This document shows positions 8,344 through 27,504 of a DNA stretch of 28,531 nucleotides, one piece after another. Under the pieces are notes generated by a model, which was not told the DNA's origin, did no database searches, and saw only the letters and a program-made list of their open reading frames with translations. The stretch's first letter is position 1. Each line of letters begins with the position of its first letter. The stretch comes from Podaxis mareebaensis (lineage: Eukaryota; Basidiomycota; Agaricomycetes; Agaricales; Agaricaceae), in NCBI GenBank assembly GCA_018524725.1, contig JAEUWP010000016.1:1-28531 (forward strand). The letters are read 5' to 3'. The translations under genes and the position numbers were made by a program.

Positions 8344-8603
8344 TGTAATGGTCTCATCTATATTTAGAACATACTTGCTCAGCATACCATTTCATCCCAT
8401 GTTTCAGCCCCTTGCTACATCCCACCTTAGTCATCCACTGACTCACCCTCTTGTTTCATCTATTCTTAGCTATCCTTCCTATAGTACATAAACCCTAGGT
8501 AGAGCACCTGTATTCCTTATGCTTTACCAACTAGTTCTTTCCCCTTTGCTCATCCTCAAGTCTTTGCCTAGTTGCAACCTGAGTTCATACAAAGGTCATA
8601 ATA
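8344..8603 (+). repeat. Element B 3' LTR
   Basis: 260 bp, starting TGTAATGGTCTC and ending CATAATA (the final CA mutated to TA). It is collinear with 2334-2593. The flanking 8604-8608 CCCCT is the second copy of the target site. Confidence 0.92.
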
Positions 8604-9613
8604 CCCCTCTCTCTATTTATTTTCTAACAGACTGGTTTCCAACTCCTATCCCCATCCAAAGGATGAAATTATGCCCCTTTTCTCCTCTTCAAATGAAGTA
8701 TCAGCTTCAGAATTGTATCTAAAGACTCACAAATCAAACACCTTTTATTGTCCAACCACCATGCATCTCTTTGAAAAATCCATGGAAAACCTTGCACTAA
8801 TCGATTCCAGAGTAGGATGAGATTTCATTGACCATAGACTGGTTGAGACCTGGGAACTAGAAATGTCACTATTAAAGAAACCAATCAAAGTCAGGAACGC
8901 AGACAGATCCCTCAATAAAGATAAGCAAATCACTCATTTTGTCACCCTTGATTTCACCATCTATGGAAAACAAATGAAGGTAAATTTGCAGGTGATTAAT
9001 CTGGGATGACCCAGAATAATCCTAGGAATCCCCTGGCTTACCAAGTACAATCCTGACATTGACTGGATGAAACAAACCCTCTCATAGAGACATTTAATGG
9101 AAAACACCACACTCTCTTCAATTATCAATAACACTCTTTCTGAAATCTATGTGAATGAACTTGAAGAAGACTTCTCCAAGGAAAACTTCACAGAAATCAA
9201 TGCCAAAACCTCCTACTCTCAAATGCTCACTCAAGCCAGAGAATAGAAGAAGAAAACTGATCCCAAGAAGATTGTTCCAAGGGAACTTCATGAATATCTT
9301 GACCTTTTCTCTCAGAAGAAAAGCAAAAGATTCCCTCCCACTCAACAATGGGACCACAAACCTTTACCCCAAAGGCTTTCCCTTCTTATAAACTCTCCCT
9401 GGCTGAAGAGAAGGAACTTGATAAATTCCTTGAAGAAAACCTTGTGAAGGGATATATCAGACCCTCAAAATCCCCAATGGCATCACCACTTTTCTTCATT
9501 TCAAAGAAAGATGGAAAACTTAGGCCCTGTCAGGACTACCATTACCTTAACATACAGTCAAGAATGGCTATCCAATCCCCTCTATTCAGTCCATACTCAA
9601 CAAACTATGAGGT
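8604..9613 (+). mobile_element. Element A, right part
   Basis: Continuation of element A after B. The first about 110 bases have no clear coding sense. Protease and the N-terminal part of RT follow and end abruptly at 9613, where element C's LTR starts. The rest of A would lie beyond element C, to the right of this window. Bases 9609-9613 (GAGGT) are the expected left copy of C's target site; the right copy is not in view. Confidence 0.75.
8716..9613 (+). pseudogene. pol: Element A pol fragment (protease and RT N-terminus)
   Basis: The first part is in frame 1. It has a retropepsin-like ALIDSRVG-stop-DFIDH near 8797-8835 (DSG-A expected) and LGIPWLTKYNPDIDW near 9022-9065, typical of gypsy proteases. 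The linker contains [17 protein letters not shown] and a stop near 9244. At about 9345-9365 the frame shifts to frame 3 and gives the RT start [31 protein letters not shown] and [16 protein letters not shown]. The RT is lost after about 70 residues, before the YxDD motif, because element C inserted here. Stops and the frameshift show decay predating or accompanying that insertion. Confidence 0.85.
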
Positions 9614-10334
9614 TGTTAAGAACTGACTCTGGACAGGGGCAGACCATGGGTGGCCAAGGGCAGATGCATGTGGACACAGGGTTGAGGCCTTGGCTTCAAC
9701 TTATGTATTGCACCCCTCTGATACTGTGGTGGCCTCACTTGACCAACTATGGACTTGAGTGGATGAGTGGACAGAGATTGGATGAAGACAGGACAAGCCT
9801 GGACCAAGGAGTGGACTTGTAGTAGACAAGCAGGAGAGAGGAGAAAGAATCTAAGTTGATATTCTGACTGAGGGGTACAAATGGTAATGATCCTACTTAT
9901 ATACTAGTAGTCAGGATAAAGTCCAGAGAGTAGTAGTTAAGTGAGAAACAATAGTAACTACTTAAAGGAGAATACTAGAAACATGTGAACTGATAACTAC
10001 AGTGAAGATACCAGAATAAGGAGTCCATCTGCAAAGTGTCTAGATGTCTGAAAGGATGGGGGTGGAAGTGAAACATCAGATAATGGAAAAACCAAGATAA
10101 GCAGATGATAATCAAGGGTAAAGGGAAAAGCCACAGATAAATGGAAAAACATGAGATAATTGGATAGAAGATCTGATAAGGAAAATAATGGAAGGGACAG
10201 GGATGGAGAAAAGTATTTACAAGGAAAGATATCCAACAGGAATGGAAGAAAGGTTAAACTGAATATGATCTACAGAATCCAGGTTGTAACCAAGGCTCCA
10301 AGAGTTTAATGGACATGAAGTGAAGTCCATAACA
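9614..10334 (-). repeat. Element C 3' LTR (left end, complete)
   Basis: 721 bp from TGTTAAGAACTG to CCATAACA on the plus strand (TG...CA on both strands). The first 139 bp match 27366-27504 with scattered transitions. Next to it at 10335 is the reverse complement of the purine tract AAGGGGGGAATAC. The U3 part contains a cluster of GATA motifs (separate entry). Confidence 0.9.
9991..10179 (-). promoter_or_regulatory. Cluster of seven WGATAA motifs in element C U3
   Basis: TGATAA or AGATAA occurs at 9991, 10078, 10095, 10106, 10135, 10154 and 10174, all in the same orientation, six of them within 102 bp. In the element's own direction this lies in the upstream (U3) part of the LTR, where transcription-factor sites are expected. 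Fungal GATA factors (AreA/Nit2 nitrogen regulators, SreA-type iron regulators) bind HGATAR. A regulatory role is inference. Confidence 0.4.
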
Positions 10335-10347
10335 GTATTCCCCCCTT
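10335..10347 (-). other. Element C 3' polypurine tract
   Basis: On the minus strand this reads AAGGGGGGAATAC directly before the LTR. It matches base for base the tract before the 3' LTR of element D (26492-26504). Confidence 0.8.
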
Positions 10348-10460
10348 AGGGCCAAGCCTCTGAGGCCCAAGTCTAGACTGGACACCTACCCTCAACTCTC
10401 TCTGCCAGATACAAAAAGGGCACCTTTGGAAAATGAACTTCATTCCTCAACTCACAAAAA

Positions 10461-11853
10461 ATGTCCCCTCAGAGCAACCAGACTCTGAATGCCAACCCCC
10501 CCTTCAACCCAGCAATGATAGTGGCTTTCTCCACCTTCTACCAACAATGGCAGGAGTAGCAACAGGTGTCCACAACTACAGAGAGCCCCACAGTGGAGGC
10601 AGGCCCCAGCAAGAAGCAAGGGAGGATAGAGGAAGTGGAGGCAGAGACATCAGTGGGAAAGACTAAGAAGAAGAAGAGGAAGATGAAGAAGGCTGAGGAG
10701 AAGTGGAGATGATGGGAGGTGGAGGAGTCAGAGCAGAGGAGGGTTGAGGAAGAGGAGAGGAAAAAGTGAGAGGAGGAGGAAAGGAAGGTGGCAGAGGAGG
10801 TGGAGGTGGAGCAGAGGAAGAGAGAGGAAGAGGAGAGGGAGTGGAAGGTGTAGGAGGAAGACAGAGAGAATCTGGAGGGAACAGGAAGAAGAGGAAGAAT
10901 GGTGGAGGGCAGAGGAAACCAGGAGGGTGGAGGCAGAGGCAGAGGTGCAGAAGAAGGCCAAGGGGAAGGGGAAGGCCATCCACCTGGAATTGGGCAATGA
11001 GTTAGATGTCCAGATTGTGGACCATCCAGCTGGGTTGTGGGCATGACTCCCCTACAAGATGGGGGGTGATAAAATGTGCCAGTGCTGCTATCAGTTGCAG
11101 ATCAGATGCATTCTGCATGAAAGTAAGTGGTTTTCTTGTTCACTAAATCCCACTGACTGTTCTTGTAGAGGAACAGATTCACTCCTGCACTGGGTGCTAT
11201 CAAAAGAAGTCCTGGTGCAAGCCATTCTACACTGAGGAGGAGTCAGAATGGAATCTGTGTGGGCCCCAGCACCCTATCCCACACATCCTTAACCTGTTCA
11301 CATAGACAGGTAAGGATATCTCTGAGTCTGAGGTCAAAATAATGGGGGCACTCCATGGTGTGGTAAGTGCCTATGTGGAGGATGGGGTTGGTGGTAAGCT
11401 GACCCAGAAATATGGTAGGTACCCCATTATGGCCCATTGAACAAGAAGTGGGTTGCCTTGTTCACCAATCTGATGGAGACCCTGATAGAAGCTGTCTGCA
11501 CCCTTACCACAGAGATCACTGCACTCCAGAGGGTATAGGAGGAGAACAATGCTCTTCTGTGAAGGGCATTTGACATCTTGGAGGAGGACATCCCACAGGT
11601 GCAAAGGACAGAAGCAGACAAAGAGGATGGATTGGATGAAGTGGAGGAGGAGCTGTAGAAGGAAACAGGCAAGAATGTCCAGGATGTGGATATAGAGGAG
11701 GGAATGGAGATGGAGCTGGCAGAACTGGAGGAAGTGGAAGGAAAGAAAGGGGAAGAGTCAGGTGAGGACAAGGAGGAGGAGGAGAGTGGACTGGAGGACA
11801 CAGAGGGAGAGAAAGGAGAGAGCAGGTCTGAGGGTGGAGACTTGGATGAGTAG
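10461..11853 (+). pseudogene. Antisense Zn2Cys6/coiled-coil gene carried by element C (decayed)
   Basis: Transcribed opposite to C's gag-pol, between pol and the 3' LTR. Three exons are inferred: 10461-11122, 11169-11362 and 11419-11853. Intron 1 is 46 nt (GTAAGTGG...CTGAC...TTGTAG), intron 2 is 56 nt (GTAAGTGC...CTGAC...TGGTAG), and both joins keep the frame. Order of parts: N-terminus MSPQSNQTL, a Lys/Glu-rich charged region (about 10660-10960), and a zinc cluster split by intron 1. The first half is CQCCYQLQIRC at 11077-11109 and the second CTGCYQKKSWC at 11186-11218, together CX2CX6CX10CX2CX6C. A heptad-like segment (NLMETLIEAVCTLTTEITA, from about 11464) and an acidic tail end at TAG 11851. 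Decay: TGA/TAG stops in exon 1, at 11044, about 11302, about 11527 and 11560, and one frameshift near 10850-10890. Zn2Cys6 proteins are fungal DNA-binding regulators; the role here is unknown. Confidence 0.8.
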
Positions 11854-12009
11854 CAGGTCCACACCTCCTCTAAAGTACATAGAATCTTGGAACTTTGTAG
11901 AAATTGAAAGTTTTTGAATGTGCTACTATCAATGTGAGGGGAAGACAATTAAGATTAGAAAACCAAAATCAGAGAATCAGCAGAAAACATAAGAACAAGA
12001 TAAGAGAAG
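11854..12009. other. Spacer between element C pol and its antisense gene
   Basis: A 156-bp stretch where the two opposed genes meet tail to tail. I see no ORF or clear signal in it beyond A-rich sequence. Confidence 0.5.
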
Positions 12010-12920
12010 TCAGAAAGAAGACAGAGGGCCAGGCTTGTCAGGATAGCTGGCATGAAAGTCAGCTACTAACTCTTGTGCGTGTTCAAGTTCCTTAGTCATC
12101 AGCCAACTAAACTCTTCATCCATACCTTCATAACCAGCCCAAATGACTTTGTACAGAAGCAGACATGTCCAGCAGCACTGGTCAATCTTGGAATCCATGA
12201 TCTGCTCAATATCATATTTGGGTTCACTGTCAATGATGACTGGAGGTAGAGGTGGAGGGACACAGTTAGGAATGGTGTTGGGAGTAGAAGGCTTGAGCAT
12301 GGAAACATGGAAGACAGGATGGACAGCACACATAGAGTCAGGAAGTCGGAGGGTAAAGAAATGAGAACTGGCTTGAGTGATGATCTCATATAGACCTAAG
12401 AACTTCTCAGATAATTTCTTTGAAGGTCTAGTAGTCTGGAAGAACTGGGCTTTGATGAAGACTTTATCACCAACCTTGAAGTCCAGAGTGGACAGATGAC
12501 AGGCATCCACAGACACCTGGTAACACTCCTGGGCTTGGGCAATTTCAGTCTTGAGAGTAGAATGTAAGTCATTGAGGTCAACTACAAAGTCTTGGGCCCA
12601 GGCAGACATGAGATTGCATTCAGGATGGATGGAGATGGCAGGGTGATAACCCTTGTTAGCAAAGAATGGAGAGACACCAGTGGTAGCATTAGGAGCATTG
12701 TTGTAGGTGAACTCTGCAATGGGAAGTAAGTCAGCCCAATTGTCCTGCTGATAATTGCAATATACTCAGAGGTATTGTTCAAGCATCTGGTTAGTCTGCT
12801 CAGTCTGTCCATCACCTTCCAGATGATAACCAGATGTGAAGTGCAGCTTCATATCCAGAGCCTTGCCTAAGGACCAGAAGAAGTGCAAGATGAATTCAGA
12901 GCCACAAGTGGATGTGACAT
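12010..12920 (-). pseudogene. pol: Element C pol, C-terminal part (integrase end and chromodomain)
   Basis: The minus-strand continuation of C's integrase after the LINE. It starts at GSEFILHFFWSLGKAL near 12905, includes GDGQTEQTNQMLEQYL-stop near 12780 (Glu of the DDE triad in TEQTNQ), the GPY/F-like region KKLSEKFLGLYEI near 12400, and a chromodomain (VIIDSEPKYDIEQI near 12230; LLYKVIWAGYEGMDEEFSWL near 12115-12170). It ends at a stop at 12010. It is collinear with the end of D's pol, including VADFHASYPDKPGPL, where D has VADFHAAYPAKPGPL. One stop (TGA or TAG type) and the LINE insertion make it dead. Confidence 0.9.
12906..12920. repeat. Left target-site duplication of the LINE
   Basis: AAGTGGATGTGACAT here is repeated at 14848-14862 just after the LINE's A/T-rich tail; 14 bases are certain, and the fifteenth (A) could belong to the tail. 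Long duplications of this kind are typical of target-primed LINE insertion. Confidence 0.85.
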
Positions 12921-14553
12921 CTTCTGGTTCGACAGAAGCCTCTCCTTCAAGGAACACATACGGTTCTACTCCACCAAGGCACCATCCACCATCCGATGCA
13001 TGCGCATGCTCAGCAACTCTGTCTGCGGTCTCTCCCCCCTCCACAAGAGACTCCTCTACTGCTTGTGTGTTGTCCCTATTGTGACCTATGGCTTCTGCTT
13101 ATGGTTCAATTGCAATGCACGCTACCGTGGGCTCATCAAATCCCTTCAGCACATGCAATGACAAGTGGCTCTCTGGATCACCAGCGCATTCCGCACCACA
13201 CCCACGGGCGGGGTCGAGGCCATCACTGGCCTCATCCCCATCCAACTTCATCTCTTTAAACTCACCAAACACTGTTCACTTCACTTCCATACCCTTCCCC
13301 CCTCCCACCCCCTCAAACTCCTCATGCGCGACATCGACCCTTTAGACACACACCAAACCAAACAGCGCTCATCAGTGCTAGATTTCGTCTCTGATGCTCA
13401 ACTGGTTACAGACCAGTTTCAGTGTCTCCACCCTAGTGCCAAACCTGGCCAGCGCCTGCTGGACTTGTTTGAAGAACAAATCAAATTCATCGAGTGTCCT
13501 GACCCTTCAAAAGAAGGCACCATGGTGCTTCACATTGCCAATGCTTCACATGCCCATGATCTTGCTTTTTCTTCCCCTGTCTCCCTACTTGTAGCCACAG
13601 ATGGTTCTGTTCCTTCCAATTCCTCCCTTTCTGCCACCTCCGCTTTCATTGTTTTCAACTCTTCTGACTTGGACATTCTTTCTTCTGTAGTCCACCCCTG
13701 TGGGGAAGTGACCTCTTCTGACTCAGAATCCTATGCTCTCCACCTCAGACTCTTCTCCTCTATTTCTTTTTCTCACCATCTTAATATCTCCTCAATTGTA
13801 GTTTTTACAGATTCAATTTCATCTGCTAAACGTCTATTTTCTTATAGGCCCCACAGCATGCACCTGGACTCCATTGCAGTCACCCCTCTCCTACACTCCT
13901 GGCTATCCTCCTCTCCTCTTAACCACATTCACTTCTAATCAATTCCCTCCTCCGCCAAATGGTCTATTCATCACAAGGCACATACCCTCACCAAGTCTCT
14001 CTGCCTCCCCAATCCTCGCCATCAACCTTTCCACACCTCTCTTGGGTTCGTTCGCAACCACTATACACAAAAATGCCTATCTCTATAGCACCAACTCATG
14101 AACAACCCTACTCACTGCAGCCACTCATGGCTCCCTCTCGTAGATGGTGCAGAGAACCCTCTCCTCCCCAAGTACACCAACAGTGGCACTTACCTAAAAC
14201 CACCCCTCGGGAAGAACGCCCAACTCTGTGTGTGCTTCACATGCTGCATTACCAATCACGTGCCCATTGGTGCCTTTCAGCAGCGTTTCTTCCCTGGGCG
14301 CCACATCACTTCCTGCCCTTGCGGTGAACCTCTCGAGACTCACGATCATATTCTCGATGCCTGCCCCCATTTTCGATACCCATATGGAGCCCGTGACAGT
14401 TTCCATTGGCTCATCCAATTCCTAGACCAAAACCCATCAGCATTCTCATTCGCCGACCAGCTTCAAGGACCTATCACACAAGAGGAGTTCACCACCTGCC
14501 ACCTCAACCATAGAGAACGACTTGCCAGAAATGGAGTCCCGGATGTACACTGA
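12921..14553 (+). pseudogene. LINE ORF2 fragment: RT C-terminus, RNase H, CCHC-like end
   Basis: A single plus-strand frame from the truncation point to TGA at 14551. RT palm/thumb end: FWFDRSLSFKEHIRFYSTKA, RMLSNSVCGLSPLHKRLLY and VPIVTYGFCLWF, as in Tad1/CgT1 and jockey-related LINEs, where this segment follows the FADD core (not present here). RNase H-like domain at about 13590-13890: VATDGSVP (first Asp), SDSESYALHL (Glu) and VVFTDSISSAKRL (Asp). The C-terminal motif CPCGEPLETHDHILDACPHF near 14317-14378 is the zinc-finger-like end seen in these elements. Stops at 13159 (TGA for an expected Arg), 13936 (TAA) and about 14089 (TAG) break it. It lacks the endonuclease and RT core, so it could never have moved on its own. 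Confidence 0.88.
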
Positions 14554-14848: not shown

Positions 14849-14862
14849 AGTGGATGTGACAT
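14848..14862. repeat. Right target-site duplication of the LINE
   Basis: Second copy of AAGTGGATGTGACAT (see 12906-12920), directly after the A/T-rich tail. Element C's integrase resumes here. Confidence 0.85.
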
Positions 14863-17704
14863 GAGAGGGGACACCATGCTTTGAAAATACATGGAGGACA
14901 AATAGGCAGGCAAGTTTGGCAGAGGTAATGGTGTCATGAGTCAGAATGAAGATACTTTGCTTGGTGAGATGATTGATGATTACAAGAATAGTATCAAAGC
15001 CAGAGGACTTGGGGAGCTTCTCAATGAAGTCCATAGAGATGGAATGCCAAGAGTGATCTGGGATAGGGAGTTGCTTGAGGTTTCTGTATGGCCAATGATG
15101 CTGTGACTTGCTCCACATACAGGTTACACAGCTTTTGCAGAAGTCCTTGATGAAGGAGTGAATGTTCAGCCAGGTGTAGTCATAGTGGACCAACTCTAGA
15201 GTCTTGTTCTGACTGAAGTGTCTGGAAAGCATGTGATCATGCTTATACTGGAGGACTCACAAGCAGAGGTCATTAGAATTGGGGATGTAAATGTGGTTGT
15301 CAAGGCAGAGGAAACTGTCCAAATCCATGGACCAGTGGCCTTGGGGGTTAGAGATATGCTCAGCAGCAAGGGAATTGGAAGGGAGAGCAGAAAGAATGGA
15401 GCTGCTCATAGTCAAGGGCCACAGCTGCTCAGAGGAAAGGGGAAAAGAGGGAGGTGGCCTGGACAGAGGCTGCAAGTTGCTCTTGAGTGAAGACAGGTCT
15501 AAAGTTGTGAGGATTTACCATGGCATAGCCATTATTCCCCCCTTTAGGATAGATGTCCCATTGTCTAGTCAAAGTGTCTGGTTTTGTCCTGAGGCATCTG
15601 GGACAGAAGCAGATGATGAGATTGAACTGCAACAAGCACTCTGACTAATGAGCCTGGTGATGGGTCAGAACTTTAGTAGTAGAGAAATACTCAAGGTTCT
15701 TGTGATCAGTGACCATGTCAATGGGTAAGGGGGAGCCTTCAAGATAGTGTCACCAGATGTGGAAAGCCTCAAAGATGGCTAGAAGTTCCTTGTTGTGAGT
15801 ATTGTAGTTAGATTTGGACATATTGAAAGTGCAGGAATGGAAAGCAATGGGATGAATGTCACTATCAGGAGCAATGATGGAAAGAATGGCAGCCAGGGCA
15901 TAGTCTGATGCATCAGTCTCAACAATAATCTGAGAGTCTGGGATCCAGTGAGTCAAGACTGGAGCTGTGGTGAAAGCCTTTTTGAGCACCTCAAATGCTT
16001 TGTGACACTCCACTGTGAAGTTCTAGGGAGCACCCTTGCAGGTGAGACAGGTCAGGGGAACTACAATGTCAGAATAGCCATGAATGAAATGGCAGTAGAA
16101 GTTAGTGAAACCTAGGAAGGACTGAATGTCCTTGACTTTCTTTGGCTCAGGCCAATCTTGAATGATCTTGACTTTGTCTTCAGACATCTTGAGACCAAGA
16201 TGTAACCAAGGTATTTGACTGCTTCTGAATTGAACTCGCACTTGTCCACTCACACATATAAGCCATACTTGTGGAGCTGATGGAGGACTTCCCAGACATG
16301 TTGTTTATGTTGGGAGATATCATCCAAGTAGATCAGTATATCATCAAGATAGATAGTGATACATACATCTAATAGATTGCCAAAGATGTCATTCATGAAG
16401 TGCTGGAAAGCTGCTGGAGCATTGGTGAGTCCAAATGGCATAACCATCCATTCAAAGGACCTATAGCAGGTCCAGAAGGCAGTTTTCCACTCATCTCCCT
16501 TGGCTATCTGGATAAGATGATAGGCATGATGGAGATCTATCTTGGTGTAGATGCAAGCTTTGCGAGGAGAATCAAGGAGGTCAGAGATCAGGGGAAGGGG
16601 ATAATGGTCTTTCTTGGTGATCTTGTTGAGTCCATGGAAGTTGATGCAAAGGTGGAGAGAGCTGTCTTTCTTGTGGATGAAGAGGACCAGAACACCATAT
16701 GGAGAGGTTGATGGATGAATGAAGCTGATGGACAAGTGTTCATCAATAAATTCTCTTAATGCTTCCAGCTTAACCTGAGATAGAGAGTAAATGGTCCTGA
16801 TAGGAGGACTAGCACTCTCTTCCAGATTGATTTTAAGGTCATATGGATAATGCAGAGGCAACATATCTGTGCAGACCTTGCTGAAGACATCAGCAAATTT
16901 GTGATACTCTGAGGGAATGTTTGACAGATTGACAGGCTCAGAGGGCTGAGTGGACCCAGTGGAGATGGACAGAGAATGGATGTTGAAAGTAAAGGGAACT
17001 GAACCAGGAAGATGAGACACATGCAGGAAAGCTGCAGTGCCAATCAGGCTGATATGAGGATGGAGTGGAGGTGAATCAGACAGAGTGGAGGAACCAGGTG
17101 TAGAAGACAGGGGGACCTGATCAGAAGTGGAGGAAGGCAGATCTGGATGGACCAGAAATGCAGAAGAAAGTGCAGTGCAGAGAGTCAGAGCAGGGGTTGG
17201 AAAGACTTGTTGCTGTGGCTGGAAAGAGATACTGTTCAAGACCCAGTCAATCAATGGATTGTAGTTGGTAAGCCAGTTGTGACTAAGAACCACAGAGCAA
17301 GACAAGTCCAACTGAGTGATGTAGAAGTCCAAAGTCATTGATTCACTGGTAGGAAATGTAACAGGGATTTTCACTAGTTCAGTTATATACAAGTTTGAAG
17401 AGCTGTCAAAAAGTTGAAGTTCTACAGGAGTGACACAGAATATAGGAATTGAGCAATCATGAACAAGGAAAGAGTCAATGAAACAATGTGTTGAACCACT
17501 ATCCACCAAGACAGTTACAGTATCATCAGATGAAGGTGGATCAGAGGCAGACAAAGGAGCAAAAGATGGAGAAGCAAGAGAAACATGAAGAGCATGAGGG
17601 TCAGAAAGAGTGGATGCATTGAGTCAGAAACTCTCTGTAGCACAGACAAGTTCAATGCAGTCCCCAGTCTGTGCAGAGTCCTGAGGACTGCCCTCTATTT
17701 TTTC
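14863..17704 (-). pseudogene. pol: Element C pol, N-terminal part (PR-RT-RH-IN start)
   Basis: Minus strand, starting in the -1 frame relative to gag at the A6-TAG junction (17695-17703). Retropepsin: VLVDSGSTHCFID near 17510 and VLSHNWLTNYNPLIDW. RT: LHLCINFHGLNKITKKDHY, YTKIDLHHAYHLIQ and the active site IYLDDILIY near 16330. A frameshift near 16250 leads into KMSEDKVKIIQDWPEP. RNase H: IVETDASDYALAAILS near 15925. Integrase: CKSCVTCMWSK near 15105 and SISMDFIEKLP near 15030 (first catalytic Asp). At the second catalytic position C has TSTCGSEF, without Asp, right beside the LINE insertion at 14863. An early TGA sits between gag and PR. Closely collinear with element D pol. Confidence 0.9.
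15533..15544 (-). other. Internal copy of the polypurine tract in element C pol
   Basis: On the minus strand this is AAGGGGGGAATA, identical to 12 bases of C's own 3' PPT, located between RNase H and integrase. It codes for Lys-Gly-Gly-Asn. Element D has the same at 23327-23338. Candidate central PPT. Confidence 0.45.
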
Positions 17705-18912: not shown

Positions 18913-18917
18913 AGAAG
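18913..18917. repeat. Left target-site duplication of element D
   Basis: AGAAG directly before D's 5' LTR, repeated exactly at 27196-27200 after the 3' LTR. Removing D and one copy restores C's gag reading frame across the site. Confidence 0.95.
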
Positions 18918-19608
18918 TGTCACAACTGCTCGTGTGCGTCCATGCTTACTTTCCTGTGCTTATCCGATGTCTGAAAATCCAATATCCGATGTTCCAATTT
19001 CGCACGACTCCGATCCACTCGTTCCGTTGATGGATTTCCATCCACCCTGTTATCCGAACAGGCGGGTGCACGCACTCGGTCGCTCACGACCACTGCAACG
19101 AGTGTTGTTCATTCGCTTTTCCTTTATCGTCTCGGATCCTTTACCCTTGCCTCGGTCCATTTGTTCCTTGCTTCCGTTCTACGTTTTATTACATTTCGAA
19201 CAGCCTCCTTTCCATTCTGCCTCCATACCTGTACCTTCCGCATGCTTCTAGCTTCTGCTTTACCTCCGAAATGTTTTACCCGTTTGTACTCGCTTTTGTT
19301 CTCCAGTTATTTTCCTGTTCCCTGTTTCCGGTTCTCGACGCATATTTAAGTGTAGTAGTTTCCTGTATCCATTTCCTCAGTCTGAATATCAACTTCGTTA
19401 TCCTCTTCCTCCTCTGTTCTGCTCGTCAGTCCTCTGGGTCGTCTTCCGACCACTCCTGCTGCTCGTCCGCACTCTGTCTCTCGTTCCCTCCGCCTCTGGG
19501 TTCCGCCTCTGTCCAAATTGGACCAACGTGATACCGGAAGGGCACAGCACATAAGCTGAGGCCGAGGTCCGCTCCCTGACGCCCTAGGTGCCCGTCCGGA
19601 ACGTAACA
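18918..19608 (+). repeat. Element D 5' LTR
   Basis: 691 bp, TGTCACAACTG...GTAACA. It aligns without gaps to 26505-27195. A manual count gives about 38 differences, all transitions. A TATA-like TATTTAAG lies at 19343-19350, about 265 bp before the LTR end, a plausible promoter. Confidence 0.96.
19343..19350 (+). promoter_or_regulatory. TATA-like element in element D LTR
   Basis: TATTTAAG in the 5' LTR, conserved in the 3' LTR near 26930. Spacing would place the transcript start, and so the U3/R border, near 19370-19390. This is inference from motif and position only. Confidence 0.4.
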
Positions 19609-19648
19609 GTATATTCAGACTCTGACTTCTGGTATTGCCATTTTTTCT
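19609..19648 (+). other. Element D leader with palindrome after the LTR
   Basis: The 40-nt leader between LTR end and gag ATG starts GTATAT and contains the palindrome TCAGA-C-TCTGA (19615-19625). I find no convincing match to a standard tRNA primer-binding site directly after the LTR; TGGTAT occurs at 19630 but is 21 nt away. Element C has a 41-nt leader with the related palindrome TCTGA-C-TCAGA. Confidence 0.45.
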
Positions 19649-21199
19649 ATGACTACCGGAACTATTACTTGTGCCACCGCTCATTCACAGAACATCACTA
19701 TCCCCACTCATCCGCTTCCTTCGGGCACTCGTCGCCGCTCCTCTGCTGCCGCTTTTGGCTCCTCCACTCCCCAATTCCCCGCATCCCATTCCAACTCTCG
19801 AACCCTTAGCGCTACAACCAAAGAGCCACTTATGGACCAAGAGCCCAACAACCGGGAACTCACTGAACACCAGTCCGAGGACGTCACAGAGTCCCAACCG
19901 GACAATAGAGAATCCCGCGTCCCCGATGACACTCAAGATGAGCTCGAGTACTATGACCTGCCCGACGACCTGAATCCAGCCGACAATGCTGAAGGTGGGG
20001 ATGATGGTCAGGGTGGTGGTGGTCCTCCAGGCGATGACCCCAGTGATGGTGACAGTCCAAGCGACAATGATGGCGATAGCGAACCCGAAGCCCGTGGCGC
20101 TCAGGAACCTCCCGAGGATGATGGTATGCATTTTATGAGAGTCATGGAGAGACTCGCCCATGGTATCGAATCCAGCGTACACAACCAATCCGTTCCTCCT
20201 CCTCCCGTTGCGCATCCCGAGAAGATCCAGGCAAAGGAACCTGACACCTTTGACGGATCTAAGCCACACAAGCTTCCGGATTTCCTTTTCCAGTGTCACA
20301 TCTATTTTAGGACGAACCCACAACTTTTCCAAACGGAGACCGCAAAAGTTAATTTCACCATTTCTTATCTTTCCGGGTCGGCGCGCCAATGGTTCCAGAC
20401 CATCCTGGACTCGGAGCCAGATTGGGATCAGATCCCATGGTACACCGACTGGAAACTCCTCTCCGATGAACTCAATCTCTATTTTGGTGCCATTGACCCC
20501 ATCACCGAAGCCACCGAGGAACTCGAAAACCTCACCATGGCTAACGGGTTGCATATCTCCAAGTATAACATCGAGTTCGCCCATCTTGCTGGTCTCCTCA
20601 AGTGGCCCGACTCCGTCCTCTGCCATCGCTACTACCGTGGTCTTCCGGACCGAATCCAAGATGCCCTTGTCTCACTTCCGAATGGCAAACCCACCTCCTA
20701 TGCTGACATGCATGCTGCTGTGGTGCACATCGACAATCACTACTGGGAACGCCAACGCGAGAAGAGCCGGGCTGGTAACCGGTCCGCATCACTCCACAAC
20801 AAACAGGAGTCTCCACAACATTCCTCCGACAAGGGCAAGGGCAAGAACCCGCCTCCGACTGCCAAATCCAGCAACAGCAATAACTTCACCAACACACCCC
20901 AGCAGTCCGGTAAAGGGTTCCATTCCACCAAGCCCACTCCATCCACCAATCAGCCTTCGTCTTCATCCTCGTCTTCATTTCCGCCCAAGTCACTCTCCAA
21001 CAAGCTCGGAAAGGATGGTAAGTTGACCCCCCAGGAATGCCAGCGTCGCATCGACAACAAGTTATGTCTCTTTTGTGGTGAACCGGGTCATCGGGTCGAC
21101 AACTGTCTGCAGAAATCCGCTAACAAGGCTAAGGCTCGCAAGGCCACTGCGGATGCCCCTCCCGCTTCGGGTCCCCCTTTGGAGGGCTCGAAAAAATAG
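19649..21199 (+). CDS. gag: Element D Gag polyprotein (intact)
   Basis: 516-residue structural protein that forms the virus-like particle and packages the element's RNA. ATG 19649 is the first in the transcript and begins MTTGTITCATAH. The first about 170 residues are Ser/Thr/Pro-rich, then strongly acidic and Gly-rich (DDGQGGGGPPGDDPSDGD, around residues 115-135). The capsid-like domain is at about residues 185-370 (EPDTFDGSKPHKLPDFLF, FTISYLSGSARQWFQ, VLCHRYYRGLPDRIQDAL). A low-complexity Ser/Pro/Asn/Lys linker follows, then a single CCHC knuckle CLFCGEPGHRVDNC at about residues 473-486 for RNA binding. It ends GSKK-TAG, with AAAAAA before the stop, where a -1 shift would enter pol. No internal stop or frameshift. 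Minus-strand ORFs in this region are shadows. Confidence 0.95.
   Translation: MTTGTITCATAHSQNITIPTHPLPSGTRRRSSAAAFGSSTPQFPASHSNSRTLSATTKEPLMDQEPNNRELTEHQSEDVTESQPDNRESRVPDDTQDELEYYDLPDDLNPADNAEGGDDGQGGGGPPGDDPSDGDSPSDNDGDSEPEARGAQEPPEDDGMHFMRVMERLAHGIESSVHNQSVPPPPVAHPEKIQAKEPDTFDGSKPHKLPDFLFQCHIYFRTNPQLFQTETAKVNFTISYLSGSARQWFQTILDSEPDWDQIPWYTDWKLLSDELNLYFGAIDPITEATEELENLTMANGLHISKYNIEFAHLAGLLKWPDSVLCHRYYRGLPDRIQDALVSLPNGKPTSYADMHAAVVHIDNHYWERQREKSRAGNRSASLHNKQESPQHSSDKGKGKNPPPTAKSSNSNNFTNTPQQSGKGFHSTKPTPSTNQPSSSSSSSFPPKSLSNKLGKDGKLTPQECQRRIDNKLCLFCGEPGHRVDNCLQKSANKAKARKATADAPPASGPPLEGSKK
21190..21199 (+). promoter_or_regulatory. Candidate -1 frameshift site at the gag/pol junction
   Basis: GAAAAAATAG joins the last gag codons (AAA AAA TAG) to the pol frame (GAA AAA ATA GAG). 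The same A6-TAG and following GAGGG occur at C's junction (17690-17703, minus strand), although the elements have diverged. It is not a textbook X-XXY-YYZ heptamer, so slippage here is inference. A suppressed stop cannot work, because pol is in another frame. Confidence 0.5.
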
Positions 21200-23326
21200 A
21201 GGGCGGTCCTCAGGACTCCGCACAGACTGGGGGCCGTGTTGATCTCCTCTGTGCACCAGGGAGTTTCCGCCTCAACGCATCCGCTCTTTCTGACCCTAAT
21301 GCTTTGTACCTCAAGTTTACTTCTTCCCTATTTCCTTCCGCTTCTTCCGACTCTCCTTTCTTCATCACTGCGCTTGTTGACAGTGGTTCTACTCACTGTT
21401 TCGTCGACTCCGGTTTAGTGCGCAAATTCGACATTCCGACTTCGTCTATCACTCCAGTGGAACTTCGCTTATTTGATGGCTCTTCAAATTCCTTTATCAC
21501 TCAGTCCGCTTCACTTCCTGTAACCTTTGATACCAGTGAATGTATGAACCTTGACCTGTATGTCACCCGGCTTGATTCTGCTTGTTCAGTGGTTCTAGGA
21601 CACGACTGGCTCACCCGCCACAATCCGTTGATTGATTGGGTTTCGGGCCGTATCACTTTCCATGCCCCTGACAATGCAAATCTCACACCTTCCGTTTCCG
21701 TACATGCATCCTCCGTTTCTGTGGAGTCACTTACCACTGTTCTGGATCCAGTTTCATCTCCGACTCTGATCTCCAACTCCACTCTCTTCTCTCCCGCGAA
21801 GCCTGACATCCGTCTCATCAATGCTGCAGCATTCATGCACGCTTCACATCTTCCAGGTTCATACCGCTTCGCCCTTAATCTCCGCTCCGCTGCCGTTTCT
21901 GCTTCCGCTGCCTCCACCGAAGAGCCTACCGATCTTTCCAAAGTTCCCACCGAGTATCACGAATTTGCCGACGTTTTCAGCAAAGCCCGCGCTGACTCCC
22001 TTCCTCTGCACCATCCTTTTGACCTCAAGATTAATCTAGAGGAGGGTGCTTCTCCCCCAGTCGGAACAATTTATTCGTTATTGCAGGTCGAGCTGGAAGC
22101 GCTCCGAGAGTTTATTGATGAACATTTGTCAATAGGCTTTATCTGTCCCTCCACCTCTCCACATGGTGCCCCTGTTCTTTTTGTCAAGAAGAAAGATGGA
22201 TCCCTCCGACTTTGTGTCGACTTCCGAGGCCTCAACCGTATCACCAAGAAGGATCGTTACCCACTTCCTCTCATTTCCGATCTCCTCAACTCGCCCCGCA
22301 AGGCCCGCATTTATACGAAGATTGATCTCCGTCACACTTATCATTTGGTCCGGATTGCTGAAGGTGATGAATGGAAGACCGCATTCCAAACCCGCTATGG
22401 CTCGTTTGAATGGCTCGTCATGCCTTTCGGTCTTACCAATGCTCCTGCTGCTTTCCAACGATTCATGAATGATATCTTCAAGGATTTACTTGATGTGTGT
22501 GTTACTGTCTATTTGGACGACATCCTGATTTATTCCGACAACCCGTCCGAGCACTGCAAGCATGTCCGGGAGGTCCTCAAACGTCTTCGCAAAAATGGTC
22601 TTTATGCACGTGCTGATAAATGCGAGTTCAACTCTGATACTGTTGAATACCTTGGTTACATTCTATCTCCCGAGGGTCTCAAGATGTCCGAGGACAAGGT
22701 CAAGATCATCCAGGAGTGGCCCGAGCCAAAGAAGGTTAAAGATATTCAGTCTTTCCTTGGGTTTGCAAATTTCTACCGCCATTTCATCCATGCGTACTCC
22801 GACATCGTTGTTCCGCTTACCCATCTCACCCGGAAAGGTACTACATGGAATTTCGGTGATGAAGCCCGCAAATCATTCAACACCCTCAAGGAAGCCTTCA
22901 CCACCGCTCCGGTTCTCACTCATTGGATCCCCGACTCCCAAATCATCGTCGAGACTGACGCTTCCGACTACACCCTAGCCGCAATTCTCTCCATCGTCGC
23001 TCCGGATGGCGATATACATCCCATAGCGTTCCACTCCCACACATTTTCCACTTCCGAGCTCAATTACGACACCCATGACAAGGAACTCTTGGCGATCTTC
23101 GAAGCCTTCCGCATTTGGCAACATTACCTCAAAGGCTCCGCTCTTCCGATAGACGTCATCACGGATCACAAGAACCTCGAGTATTTTTGTACCATGAAGG
23201 TTTTGACCCGACGCCAAGCCCGCTGGTCCGAATATCTTTCCCAATTCAACCTTGTCATCCGCTTCCGCCCTGGTCACCTCGGAACAAAACCGGACGCTTT
23301 GACTAGACGATGGGACGTCTACCCTA

Positions 23327-23338
23327 AAGGGGGGAATA
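23327..23338 (+). other. Internal copy of the polypurine tract in element D pol
   Basis: AAGGGGGGAATA, identical to the 12 bases of the 3' PPT at 26492-26503, lies between RNase H and integrase and codes for Lys-Gly-Gly-Asn. The same position in element C has it too. Candidate central polypurine tract. Confidence 0.5.
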
Positions 23339-24936
23339 GCAACTACTCAGTGGTCAATCCGCACAATTTCCGGCCCGTATTCACTCAAGAACAGCTTGCT
23401 GCCTCCGTCCGCGCTACCTACCTCTACACTCCGACCCTTCGTGCTGCCGTGGTCATGGATACGTTTAAACTCCATTCCGATATCCTCACCACTCTTCCTA
23501 ACGACCCAATAGCAGCTGAGCACCTCACTAACCCCGAAGGACGTTGGTCTGTAGATTCCGATGGCTTCTTACGACTTGATGACAGGATCTATGTACCCGA
23601 CTCCGACAACCTCCGCCTCCGCATCTTGCAGTACCACCATGACCACGCTCTAGCTGGTCATTTCGGCCAGAACAAAACCCTAGAGCTAATCCGACGCGAT
23701 TATACGTGGCCTGGTATCCAAGACTTTGTCAAGGAGTTCTGCAAGAGTTGCGTGACATGCATGCGATCCAAACCTCAACGTCATCGGCTGTATGGGAACC
23801 TCAAGCAGCTCCCGATCCCTGAACGCCCCTGGGACTCAATTTCCATGGACTTTATCGAGAAACTTCCCTCTTCCTCCAGTTACGACACTATCCTCGTAAT
23901 CGTTGACCGCCTCACAAAGCAAGCAATCTTTGTTCCGACGCATGATACCATCACTTCTGCTGAGCTCGCCCGATTATTCATCCTACATGTATTTTCCAAG
24001 CACGGTGTTCCTTCACACGTTACCTCCAACCGTGGTTCCGAGTTCGTATCACACTTCTTCTGTTCCCTTGGTCAAGCTCTCGACATGAAGCTTCACTATA
24101 CTTCCAGATACCATCCCGAAGGTGACGGACAGACAGAACGAACTAACCAGACCTTGGAACAGTACCTCCGCATTTATTGCAACTACCAACAGGACAACTG
24201 GGCCGAACTCCTTCCGATTGCTGAGTTTGCATTCAACAATGCCCCGAGCACAACTACGGGTATCTCTCCCTTCTTTGTGAACAAAGGTTACCATCTGAAT
24301 ATCACTGTTCATCCCGAACGTGATCTTGCTTCCGCCCGCGCCCGACAATTCGCTGTGGACCTTGATGAGCTTCACACTACTCTGAAATCTGAGATTGCTC
24401 ATGCCCAGCGCAGATACCAAGTTTCCGCCGACTCCTGTCGCCTTCCAGCTCCCGATTTCAAGGTCGGAGACAAGGTATTCGTCAAAGCGCAATTCTTCCG
24501 TACTACGAGGCCTTCGAAGAAGCTTTCCGAGAAGTACCTAGGTCCCTACGAGATCATCTCCCAGGCTGGCTCACACTCGTTCACAATCTGACTACCCGAT
24601 TCCATGCGCGCTGTCCATCCCATCTTCCATGTCTCTATGCTCGAACCCGCCACTCCGAACCCGATTCCGAATCGTACTGAATCTACTCCTGCACCCGTTA
24701 TTATTGACGGTGAACCCGAATACAAAATTGCTCGGATCGTCGACTTGAAAATCGATCGTCGCAGGGCATGCAAGTTATTGTACAAGGTTATCTGGTTAGG
24801 TTATGAGGATACTGACGAGGAATCCTCCTGGCTACCCGCTACGGAGCTAGAACACGCCGCTGAACTTGTAGCCGACTTCCATGCTGCTTATCCCGCAAAG
24901 CCTGGTCCTCTTTCCGCGCTCACACTTTCGCGCTAA

Positions 24937-25158
24937 GTTTCCATTTCTATTGTTGTTTTCAACTAATATTCTTTTCCTTATTATTTTCCAATTTTCATTT
25001 TCATTTTCATTTTCTTATTTTTTCACACTTCCCGGGACCAAGGCAAAACATTTCATTCACATTCGCAAACATTCCGACGACAATGCAGTACTACATTACA
25101 AGAAAATGAACGAACTCTGCACGAGGGCACTAGGAGGCGAGGGGACTCACGGGCCCTT
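24937..25158. other. Spacer between element D pol and its antisense gene
   Basis: A 222-bp T-rich stretch with TTTCA/TTTTC repeats (about 24985-25015) where the convergent genes meet. It could hold termination signals for both strands; I see no ORF. Confidence 0.5.
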
Positions 25159-26359
25159 TCAGACCCGCCTCAATGAACCTCCTCCGCGTCCCTCCGGATC
25201 CTCCTGACGACACACCAGCTCGAGATCCCACATCATCTCCATGTTCTGCTCCATCGTCGCCCACATCGCTTCTGTCGCCTCTGTGTTCCAATCCATCACC
25301 TCCACCGTCCGATCCGTTGAGCGCGTGATAGTCCGCTGCAGCGATTGATTTGACTTGATGCCCCGCTCCAGAGTGGTCTGCAGACGGTCGATCGCCTGCT
25401 GATTCTGGTTGTGTGACTCCCGCATCATCGCCAGCTCGTCGGAGAACCGCTCAATTGTAGAACCGAGGTATTTCATCTCCCACGCATGTTGGCGGGATTG
25501 CGGAGACGAGGGGGACTATCGGATTTCATCAGCTTTCATTATTCCCTGTACCGGATGCACTTACCAGAGACAACTCCCACCCAGCTTCAGCCTCCTCATG
25601 CTGAGGACTCTTAATTGGTATAGGAGCTGGCTGAGAGAACGACGACGGGGTCCAAGCGACAGCCGAAGAGCTAGATGGAGTCCGCACCATCGTAGATGTA
25701 GGTAGCGAGAAGGCTGGAGTTGTTAACCCGACTGGATTTCCGAAACCACTCCTCCCAGAGCTCGACGCTGCGCCCGACATCACTCCCGAAGCCACCGATG
25801 ATCCCCCAGTCTTCTTCCTAGGTGCAGGTGGCACCGTTGACCTCGTACCCCCAGATAGATCACACCCGATGTGTCCCCACTTGCATTCATTACAGGCCGT
25901 CCCCGGATACCCGTGACACACCAACCCCTTCTCCGAGCACCTCTTACACGGCACCAGCAGGATACCTCCCTCACCCGCTCCCGAGCTCGAACCACCCGAT
26001 CGCGAAGGCATGGGCGGAACCGTGACATGTGACATTGTAGGACCCGATGGAACTACTTGTTGTGAACTCCGTAATGCCCACTGACCGATTTGCACACTTG
26101 GAGCTGGCGTATCTGCCCCTTCATCGTCATCTTCCTCCTCCGGACTCTCCGCTCGCTTACTCTTCGACTTCTTCTTCGTCTTTTCCCTCACAGCCGCTTG
26201 ACTACCTTCCAACTCCCGACGATGCTTGCTCGCATCTCCGCTTTCACTCGCATCGACTTCCATAGCCGCCGAGGACTCGTCCGGGAACCCGAGCATTGCA
26301 CATTGCTCCGGGGTGAGCTTGCTGAGGTCGACAGTGACTTGGCTGGGCTGGGAAGGCAT
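25159..26359 (-). CDS. Antisense Zn2Cys6/coiled-coil protein of element D, spliced
   Basis: Encoded opposite to gag-pol. Exon 1 is 26359-25565 and exon 2 is 25515-25159, giving about 383 residues without a stop. The 49-nt intron (25516-25564) has donor GTAAGTGC, branch-like CTGAT and acceptor GATAG, is in phase 0, and leaves exon 2 open upstream of its first Met. Start chosen at MPSQPSQVTVDLSKL; an in-frame ATG at 26440 would add 27 residues. Parts: an acidic/Lys-rich N-terminus (KTKKKSKSKRAESPEEEDDD, about residues 60-80), then zinc cluster CKRCSEKGLVC (25948-25916) and CNECKWGHIGC (25894-25862), fitting CX2CX6CX7CX2CX6C. A Ser/Pro-rich linker and a C-terminal heptad-like helix (DELAMMRESHNQNQQAIDRL) follow. 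Probably a nuclear DNA-binding or regulatory protein by family; its target is unknown. It could be a captured host gene, but element C has the same layout. Confidence 0.83.
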
Positions 26360-26491
26360 GAGGGTATGAAGGGAAGGCTGGAACAAAAATTTTTTCGATG
26401 AGTTCTGACCCGGATACACGTTTTGATGACTCCTGATCACTTAGGCTTCGTTTCCGAGTCAGCCGCCTCAAGGCCTCGAGGGCTCAGCCTT
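26360..26491 (-). promoter_or_regulatory. Upstream region of the antisense gene
   Basis: A short region between the antisense ATG and the PPT. It includes stem-like repeats (AAGGC at 26470, GCCTT at 26487) next to the PPT. Element C has a comparable 126-bp region with GGGCC (10349) and GGCCC (10364). The antisense promoter must lie here or in the 3' LTR; no TATA box is evident. Confidence 0.35.
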
Positions 26492-26504
26492 AAGGGGGGA
26501 ATAC
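26492..26504 (+). other. Element D 3' polypurine tract
   Basis: AAGGGGGGAATAC immediately before the 3' LTR, the plus-strand primer of reverse transcription. Identical to the tract of element C. Confidence 0.85.
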
Positions 26505-27195
26505 TGTCACAACCACTCGTGCGCGTCCGCGCTTACTTTCCTGCGCTTATCCGATGTCCGAAAATCCGATATCCGATGTTCCGATTTCGCACGACTCTGA
26601 TCCACTCGTTCTGTTGATGGATTTCTGTCTGCCCTGTTATCCGAACAGGCGGGTGCACGCACTCGGTCACTCACGACCACTGCAATGAGTGTTGTTCATT
26701 CGCTTTTCCTTTATTGTCTCGGATCCTTTACCCTTGCCTCGGTCCATTTGTTCCTTGCTTCCGTTCTATGTTTTATTACATTTCGAACAGCCTCCTTTCC
26801 ATTCTGCCTCCATACCTGTACCTTCCACACACTTCTAGCTTCTGCTTTACCTCCGAAATGTTTTACCCGTTTGTACTCGCTTTTGTTCTCCAGTTATTTT
26901 CCTGTTCCCCGTTTCTGGTTCTCAACGCGTATTTAAGTGTAGTAGTTTCCTGTATCCGTTTCCTCAGTCTGAATATCAACTTCATTATCCTCTTCCTCCT
27001 CTGTTCTGCTCGTCAGTCCTCTGGGTCGTCTTCCAACCACTCCTGCTGCTCATCCGCACTCTGTCTCTCGTTCCCTCCACCTCCGGGTTCCGCCTCTGTC
27101 CAAATCAGACCAACGCGATACCGGAAGGGCACAGCACATAAGCTGAGGCCGAGGTCCGCTCCCTGACGCCCTAGGCGCCCGTCTGGAATGTAACA
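26505..27195 (+). repeat. Element D 3' LTR
   Basis: 691 bp, TGTCACAACCACTCG...ATGTAACA. Collinear with the 5' LTR. Near its start are four CCGAT motifs in about 35 bp (26551-26585). Confidence 0.96.
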
Positions 27196-27200
27196 AGAAG
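27196..27200. repeat. Right target-site duplication of element D
   Basis: AGAAG, matching 18913-18917 exactly. Confidence 0.95.
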
Positions 27201-27365: not shown

Positions 27366-27504
27366 TGTTAAGAACTGACTCTGGATAGGGGTGGACCATG
27401 GGCAGCCAAGGGCAGATACACACAGACACAGGGTTGAGGCCTTGGCTTCAACTTATGTGTTGCACCCCTCTGATACTGTGGTGGCCTCACTTGACCAACT
27501 ACAG
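27366..27504 (-). repeat. Element C 5' LTR, partial (right end)
   Basis: 139 bp beginning TGTTAAGAACTG, matching 9614-9752 with scattered transitions. Beside it, 27349-27359 carries the palindrome of C's leader. The match stops at 27504, where sequence E begins with TG. Confidence 0.85.

Follow-up and report, generated by a model that had tools for sequence, protein, structure and literature searches.

The closest described counterpart of the gene reported here is brtn, an antisense gene of the chromodomain Ty3/gypsy element Boty of Botrytis cinerea (Zhao et al. 2011 Virology, cited in PMC7264820, PMC8365987 and PMC4227169). A preliminary description of the present locus had stated that no such antisense gene was known in fungal chromoviruses, a statement that the published brtn, as cited in those three articles, corrects. 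Compared by description, brtn is likewise the antisense gene of a fungal chromodomain gypsy element and lies between pol and the 3' LTR; its mentions in the three articles name neither introns nor a zinc cluster, and its host, Botrytis, is an ascomycete. Antisense ORFs (aORFs) are also described in the plant gypsy elements Retand (TRP28), Grande (GENE23), RIRE2 and PvRetro13 (PMC11963269, PMC7264820). As far as these articles describe them, the plant aORFs resemble the present gene in position, orientation, presence in most copies and a suspected nuclear or DNA-related role, and they differ in their plant hosts, in the non-chromovirus lineage of Retand and in their domains (PF04195, SMC). For antisense genes located between pol and the 3' LTR, passages of the same two articles (PMC7264820, PMC11963269) give the function as unknown, and HBZ and APH-2 of HTLV are named in one of them (PMC11963269). 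HBZ and APH-2 share with the present gene the plan of a retroelement antisense gene coding for a nuclear regulator, an analogy for which we claim no homology, and they belong to a retrovirus. To our knowledge, neither has a cysteine cluster.

In fungal gypsy elements, additional ORFs of unknown function were marked by Novikova et al. 2010, in whose text, as far as available to us, neither orientation nor content of these ORFs is named (PMC2864245), and the accessible text on Laccaria elements (PMC3411680) yielded no passage concerning antisense or zinc. In the literature covered, which mostly excludes subscription journals, we found no description of an antisense gene with a cysteine cluster in a fungal retroelement. 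Within this coverage, antisense accessory genes are known already, and the cysteine cluster and the recurrence in a second clade were not found in print.

Layout of element D and its antisense gene

We analysed a stretch of 28,531 nt from Podaxis mareebaensis (contig JAEUWP010000016.1), referred to as the window. Its minus strand carries, from 26359 to 25159, a two-exon gene (795 nt, a 49-nt intron and 357 nt, together 383 aa) seated between pol and the 3' LTR of a chromodomain Ty3/gypsy element, element D, and convergent to gag-pol. The features of element D are as follows, S1 being the subfamily of the window copy and S2 a second subfamily.

18913..18917, no strand: 5' copy of the target-site duplication AGAAG
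18918..19608, plus strand: 5' LTR of element D, 691 bp
19607..21199, plus strand: gag reading frame, 530 aa from stop to stop (Retrotrans_gag, Ty3_capsid)
21133..24936, plus strand: pol, with protease, RT, RNase H, integrase and chromodomain; one premature TGA at 24589-24591
24937..25158, no strand: AT-rich spacer separating pol from the antisense gene, whose 3' ends converge here; found beside the gene at 16 of 19 other S1 places (at C51:8011 in part only)
25159..25515, minus strand: exon 2 of the antisense gene, 118 codons and stop; predicted single helix at exon residues 5-105
25516..25564, minus strand: 49-nt intron in phase 0, GTAAGT ... GCTGATGAAATCCGATAG, at the same position in S2
25565..26359, minus strand: exon 1 of the antisense gene, 265 codons, with a basic/acidic stretch, the six-cysteine cluster and an S/P/T-rich linker
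25862..25948, minus strand: six-cysteine cluster CX2CX6CX7CX2CX6C, residues 138-166
26360..26504, minus strand: conserved 145-nt leader of the antisense gene, including the sense-strand polypurine tract
26505..27195, plus strand: 3' LTR of element D, from which the antisense promoter probably comes
26550..26584, no strand: five TCCGA direct repeats in U3, 7-8 nt apart, a candidate binding site
27196..27200, no strand: 3' copy of the target-site duplication AGAAG

The coordinates, strand, 383 codons, 49-nt intron (25564-25516) and spacing CX2CX6CX7CX2CX6C reported in the preliminary description were all exact on re-check, and exon 2 is indeed open in phase for 13 codons ahead of its first Met. 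The strict six-cysteine pattern arose in 0 of 100,000 shuffles for each of three proteins. The element had also been called nearly intact; it has a pair of 691-bp LTRs and a perfect 5-bp target duplication (AGAAG), and the term is to be qualified for pol, which has the premature TGA at 24589-24591. The two LTRs are 94.5% alike, and their 38 differences comprise 28 CpG transitions, 10 other transitions and no transversion. A chromodomain ends pol (Chromo PF00385, 32.3 bits against a cut-off of 25.1), and the gag and pol frames overlap by 67 nt (21133-21199), pol lying in the -1 frame, the arrangement seen in programmed frameshifting. Elsewhere in the window, element A, of a third lineage, is bounded by 251-bp direct repeats (LTRs; 2341-2591 and 8351-8601) that are 97% alike, so that it may be younger than element D; no antisense frame of at least 80 aa lies between its pol and 3' LTR.

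Copies in the host genome and constraint on the reading frame

A DNA search of the organism's own genome gave 22 matching gene places including the window copy, and protein searches gave 25 matches per exon with fragments counted in. S2 comprises C415 (twice), C308, C234, C274 and part of C243, and its exon 1 is only 40-46% identical to that of S1. With the pol 3' end as query (at least 78% identity), the opposite-strand gene was found beyond it at 22 of 22 S1 and S2 places among the matches listed; at C30 and C243 the antisense gene beside the pol 3' end is left only in part, and C80, which matched only the first 541 bases of the pol query, was kept out of this judgement. These gene and pol-end counts refer to the matches listed, and further copies may exist. 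Four gene places are without the family's pol in the stretch examined (C51:8011, C218, C52 and C272), of which C218 sits at a contig end and C272 near a pol of another lineage (67%); all four retain leader sequence and three of them LTR sequence. The expected presence in related elements is thus borne out, the gene lying antisense between pol and the 3' LTR at all 22 pol ends among the matches listed, and it is an antisense ORF between pol and the 3' LTR in all or most family copies, the arrangement termed aORF-3R. Because the gene occupies the same place beside pol ends, keeps its intron and frame and has near-invariant cysteines, it is not a product of chance, and we consider it almost certain that this is a real gene and part of the element. 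At C200:63149-68316 (L010), two element copies face each other within 6 kb, 3' LTR to 3' LTR, with a pol piece between them.

The GT-AG intron is kept at the same position and in phase 0 in all 22 aligned copies (17 of 17 in S1, 5 of 5 in S2), its length ranging over 46-50 nt (46-47 nt in S2) and its sequence differing between the subfamilies. The 17-copy S1 alignment is without the fragments C52, C272 and C30 and without C308, which was counted as S2; C218 was left out of the exon 2 counts (incomplete) and C243 out of the S2 counts (partial). In all 22 copies the length of exon 1 is divisible by three (783, 789, 792 or 795 nt in the 17 S1 copies), and 5 of the 22 have no stop in either exon. 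Over the 17 S1 copies, exon 1 contains 16 TGA and 4 TAG stops in all, often, as judged by eye, at positions where relatives have arginine, as CpG decay would give. The window copy has a dN/dS of 0.21-0.36 against 15 others. When all six frames of exon 1 were compared in 10 of the 17 copies, the true frame gave a dN/dS of 0.29, four others gave 1.13, 0.68, 0.99 and 0.81, and the fifth gave 0.35; each of these five other frames has at least three stops in every one of the 10 copies. A chance open frame on the wrong strand can be dismissed, since the other frames are stop-ridden, the antisense frame has the lowest dN/dS and transversions agree.

Plain dN/dS ratios overstate the constraint, because CpG decay by itself lowers dN/dS to 0.47-0.49. 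This is the mean of a neutral-decay simulation with the mutation spectrum of the LTR pair (one-sided, 300 runs per pair); the observed values, 0.24-0.32, lay under its 1% tail for 6 of the 7 pairs. Neutral decay was rejected on this ground as the source of the low ratio, one pair not lying below the 1% tail. Transversions are the cleanest measure of selection, since CpG decay does not make them. Among transversion-only columns, S1 has 33 synonymous and 39 nonsynonymous in exon 1 (20% synonymous expected, p = 9e-7) and 8 and 6 in exon 2 (18% expected, p = 0.001), with transversion-only omega values of 0.30 and 0.16. In S2, exon 1 has 9 synonymous and 3 nonsynonymous columns (p = 4e-5), and the 2 and 5 of exon 2 are not significant and indicate no constraint by themselves. 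For pol, seven S1 copies gave 13 synonymous and 11 nonsynonymous columns (19% synonymous expected). Purifying selection across copies, one of the checks set by the preliminary description, therefore holds with CpG decay excluded, and its antisense gene is borne out as real, selected, spliced-looking and belonging to the element by copies, splice sites and selection. Judged from these substitution patterns, the gene is kept under purifying selection in two subfamilies.

Between the subfamilies, dN is 0.55-0.68 for the antisense gene against 0.08-0.14 for pol, about five to seven times as much (9 pol copies were used for this dN/dS comparison, and 7 for the transversion count). The corresponding dS of the gene, 1.2-2.8 by pair, is only somewhat above the 1.0-1.2 of pol, for which reason a module swap between subfamilies is not favoured. 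Among the gene copies, CpG observed/expected ratios range from 1.06 to 0 and offer a natural clock for decay after insertion.

Antisense gene of a second gypsy clade

Other gypsy lineages are represented, among the matches listed, by 8 pol places at 68-74% identity, 7 of them with the pol 3' end and one, C160:12926, without it. An antisense gene of a further clade, S3, stands beside 7 of 7 of these pol 3' ends among the matches listed (including C30:4188, in L026) and is frameshifted in C422; the S3 counts are without L038 (frameshifted). The copy at C51:24862-26256 has three exons of 652, 197 and 441 nt, separated by introns of 49 and 56 nt, and codes for 429 aa in the order long E/K-rich stretch, KLCLRCHQLGIKCVRHEKDQIHSCTGCYQKKSWC, core and acidic tail. 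Its first intron splits Cys3 from Cys4, and exon 3 has a clear heptad pattern (0 of 1000 shuffles). Over 15 pairs of six S3 copies, dN/dS is 0.10-0.24 (0.01-0.20 in the core), values to be read with the caveat that many pairs have a dS above 1 and that three are saturated in the core. A genome search with S3 exon 1 gave 23 places (28 matches), the copy in element B of the window among them, of which weak ones may be chance because the query is E/K-rich, and for exon 3 none of 1165 candidates was accepted in a set of 5.8 billion proteins.

Profiles of the S1/S2 gene scored below 0 bits against six S3 loci. In hhalign (with a profile without C152, because of its in-frame tandem expansion), the C6 regions of S1/S2 and S3 were aligned with a probability of 9-10% and, taken as a single comparison, an E of about 0.003. 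CxRCxxxG(I/L)xC is common to the open S1, S2 and S3 proteins, and the sequence block around the polypurine tract next to the genes is similar. Two gypsy clades of this genome carry antisense genes of similar plan. One decayed copy lies in the window itself:

9612..12401, plus strand: decayed S3-type antisense gene in element B with LTR side and pol end; gene fragments matched at 10485-11097

The pol of element B is found in pieces at 12349-12927 and 14852-15403, and RNase H-like frames at 13162-14553 (plus strand), by eye a non-LTR element, lie inside its integrase part. One 28-kb window thus holds two different antisense accessory genes, those of elements D and B. A 139-nt piece resembling the LTR side of the S3 clade is located at 27366-27504, 170 nt beyond the end of element D's 3' LTR, with a like piece at 9613-9749.

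Protein features, the U3 array and possible functions

The S1 protein has an N-terminal VDLSKL and a KKKSK followed by an EEEDDDE stretch, its N-terminal part being basic and then acidic; the cysteine cluster is followed downstream by the S/P/T-rich linker. Cys 1, 2, 3 and 6 are kept in 22 of 22 copies, and Cys 4 and 5 in 21 of 22 each. Exon 2 is predicted to form one 101-residue helix (mean pLDDT 89.7, with 92 of 118 residues at 90 or more); a crude heptad test of this helix was weak, with 28 to 147 of 1000 shuffles as good in four copies. Pairing of the protein through the exon 2 helix is likely. Comparing C131 with C415a, the most alike parts are the basic/acidic part (31/50 residues), the pre-cluster part (19/34), the start of exon 2 (10/19) and the cluster (17/33), while the coil (18/76, the lowest) and the linker (25/76) are among the least alike. 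In exon 2 of C152 (L020), a 7-residue unit (NQNWQVI and variants) has expanded in tandem and in frame, and the exon is 147 nt longer than the others.

The preliminary description had placed the protein in the fungal Zn2Cys6 family, for which the cysteine spacing rule is CX2CX6CX5-12CX2CX6-8C. S1 and S2 (CX2CX6CX7CX2CX6C) as well as S3 (CX2CX6CX10CX2CX6C) have this spacing, and to that extent the assignment survives; membership of the family does not, with a Zn_clus (PF00172) score of 14.8 bits for S1, no listed match for S2 and 9.1 bits for S3 against a cut-off of 21, and without a basic run. In GAL4-type proteins, a lysine/arginine run between Cys2 and Cys3 contacts CGG, and it is absent in all three proteins, which have SEKGLV, MNMGIT and HQLGIK. 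The likeness to GAL4-type factors accordingly lies in the cysteine spacing and in a helix fit for pairing, and the differences lie in the sub-cut-off Pfam score, the lack of the basic run after Cys2, the mid-protein position of the cluster and a predicted helix about 100 residues away from it. The Zn2Cys6 fold consists of two short helices around two zinc ions; the AlphaFold model has helices at 139-144 and 156-162, one per CXXC, at a pLDDT of only ~40-55, exon 1 being poorly modelled as a whole (pLDDT 45).

Searches with the spliced protein and the exon 1 alignment against the set of 5.8 billion proteins gave 7614 candidates and 7999 scored, none of them accepted, a result that says little about other fungi. 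None of 600 pattern matches in IMG/VR was confirmed, and the PDB searched by sequence gave 3 matches at E 1-1.9, none within the cysteine cluster. In Pfam, the best match of exon 2 was UPF0181 (18.3 bits, under the cut-off of 23.5), and PF04195, the domain of Retand TRP28, had no match at E up to 1 and up to 5.

At the start of U3, the S1 LTRs of the window copy and C51a carry an array of five TCCGA copies, and C129 has it with one lost and one further on. The S2 LTR of C415a, which otherwise gave one 70-base match to the S1 LTR, has five TCCGA at about the same place, 6-10 nt apart. With 300 shuffles of each of these LTRs (three of S1, one of S2), a TCCGA cluster of this kind never arose, and in a control with any 5-mer, five copies were reached in 3-9 of 100 shuffles. 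The array has decayed in other copies and is absent from four S3 LTRs examined. It lies 190 nt from the start codon of the antisense gene and reads on the other strand as CGG sites, triplets of the type recognised by Zn2Cys6 proteins. Since S1 and S2 are related, its occurrence in both is not independent evidence, and it could instead serve a host factor or the sense promoter.

These features suggest the following mechanism. Transcription would run from the LTR/leader side towards pol, with a promoter that probably lies in U3 or the leader, since the start of the gene lies 145 nt from the 3' LTR and its reading direction points away from that LTR. The intron could survive transposition because, being antisense to the genomic RNA, it would not be removed from it. 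The six cysteines may bind zinc, and the protein would pair through the exon 2 helix, would probably be nuclear and may regulate the element while bound to DNA or chromatin, the most likely site being the element's own LTR with the TCCGA array in U3. A nuclear dimeric regulator of its own LTR is favoured because the array reads as CGG sites on the other strand; against it stand the missing basic residues, the sub-cut-off Zn_clus score, the arrayless S3 LTRs and the fast change of the protein. Taken as a whole, the reading of a resident accessory gene of a chromodomain Ty3/gypsy lineage, whose product is such a regulator, stands in our estimate at an even balance. A bolder version, in which at least two clades encode an antisense, spliced, dimeric cysteine-cluster protein, and that of S1/S2 binds a TCCGA operator in its own U3 and sets LTR activity in trans as a self-specific factor, each lineage answering to its own because the factor changes rapidly from one subfamily to the other, is put forward tentatively and falls well short of even probability.

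The main rival to an LTR regulator is an import or targeting cofactor, that is, a replication-cycle accessory acting as a dimeric nuclear chaperone for entry of the pre-integration complex or for the choice of chromatin sites, with the cysteines used for protein contacts. The lack of basic residues between Cys2 and Cys3, which speaks against GAL4-like DNA reading, would suit it, as would the constraint and the constant presence in the elements. The pol of these elements, however, already has a chromodomain, the usual targeting module, and the TCCGA array fits a DNA-binding role better. Grande GENE23 is nuclear, and such a role has been discussed for this class of antisense genes in part of PMC7264820; on balance we regard a cofactor of this kind as possible at a fairly low probability. 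A regulator acting by self-silencing or copy-number control, which would repress its own LTR like a phage repressor and change fast to escape the repressors of old copies, appears doubtful to us: it would account for a replacement distance that exceeds that of pol about five- to sevenfold and for the different spacing of the U3 array in the two subfamilies, but loosely constrained linkers and coils also change fast (coil 18/76, linker 25/76, cluster 17/33), and dS of the gene is also somewhat above that of pol.

Two further explanations deny the protein a role for the element. That the antisense transcript acts instead, lowering sense transcription or making double-stranded RNA with the frame incidental, would be in keeping with a gene convergent with pol and with the antisense control of retroelements known in other systems, but it meets codon-level constraint in the true frame, an exon 1 that is always in frame, and the retention of splice sites and cysteines in subfamilies whose exon 1 sequences share 46% identity; after the selection tests, it is decidedly unlikely. 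Least credible, and in our judgement highly improbable, is a host zinc-cluster gene captured once and carried without function for the element. The host genome does have at least 18 places matching Zn_clus over the cut-off, and transduction-like capture is known in LTR elements (discussed in PMC7264820). Nevertheless, the gene is constrained and kept in two subfamilies separated by a pol dS of 1.0-1.2, another clade has a like gene, no clear host copy emerged from the protein searches of this genome, and the pol-less places keep the leader (4 of 4) and the LTR (3 of 4).

With a cysteine cluster, a long helix and an LTR repeat motif in two subfamilies, the candidate mechanism of a regulator of its own LTR is concrete, and the question of function becomes one for a binding assay and a reporter test. 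Since a second family of the same genome has a comparable gene, jumping genes may bring their own regulator, and its appearance in two clades points to the interval from pol to the 3' LTR as a regular site for genes of this type in the fungus. By the same token, some of the fungal cysteine-cluster proteins classed as hypothetical may really belong to retroelements.
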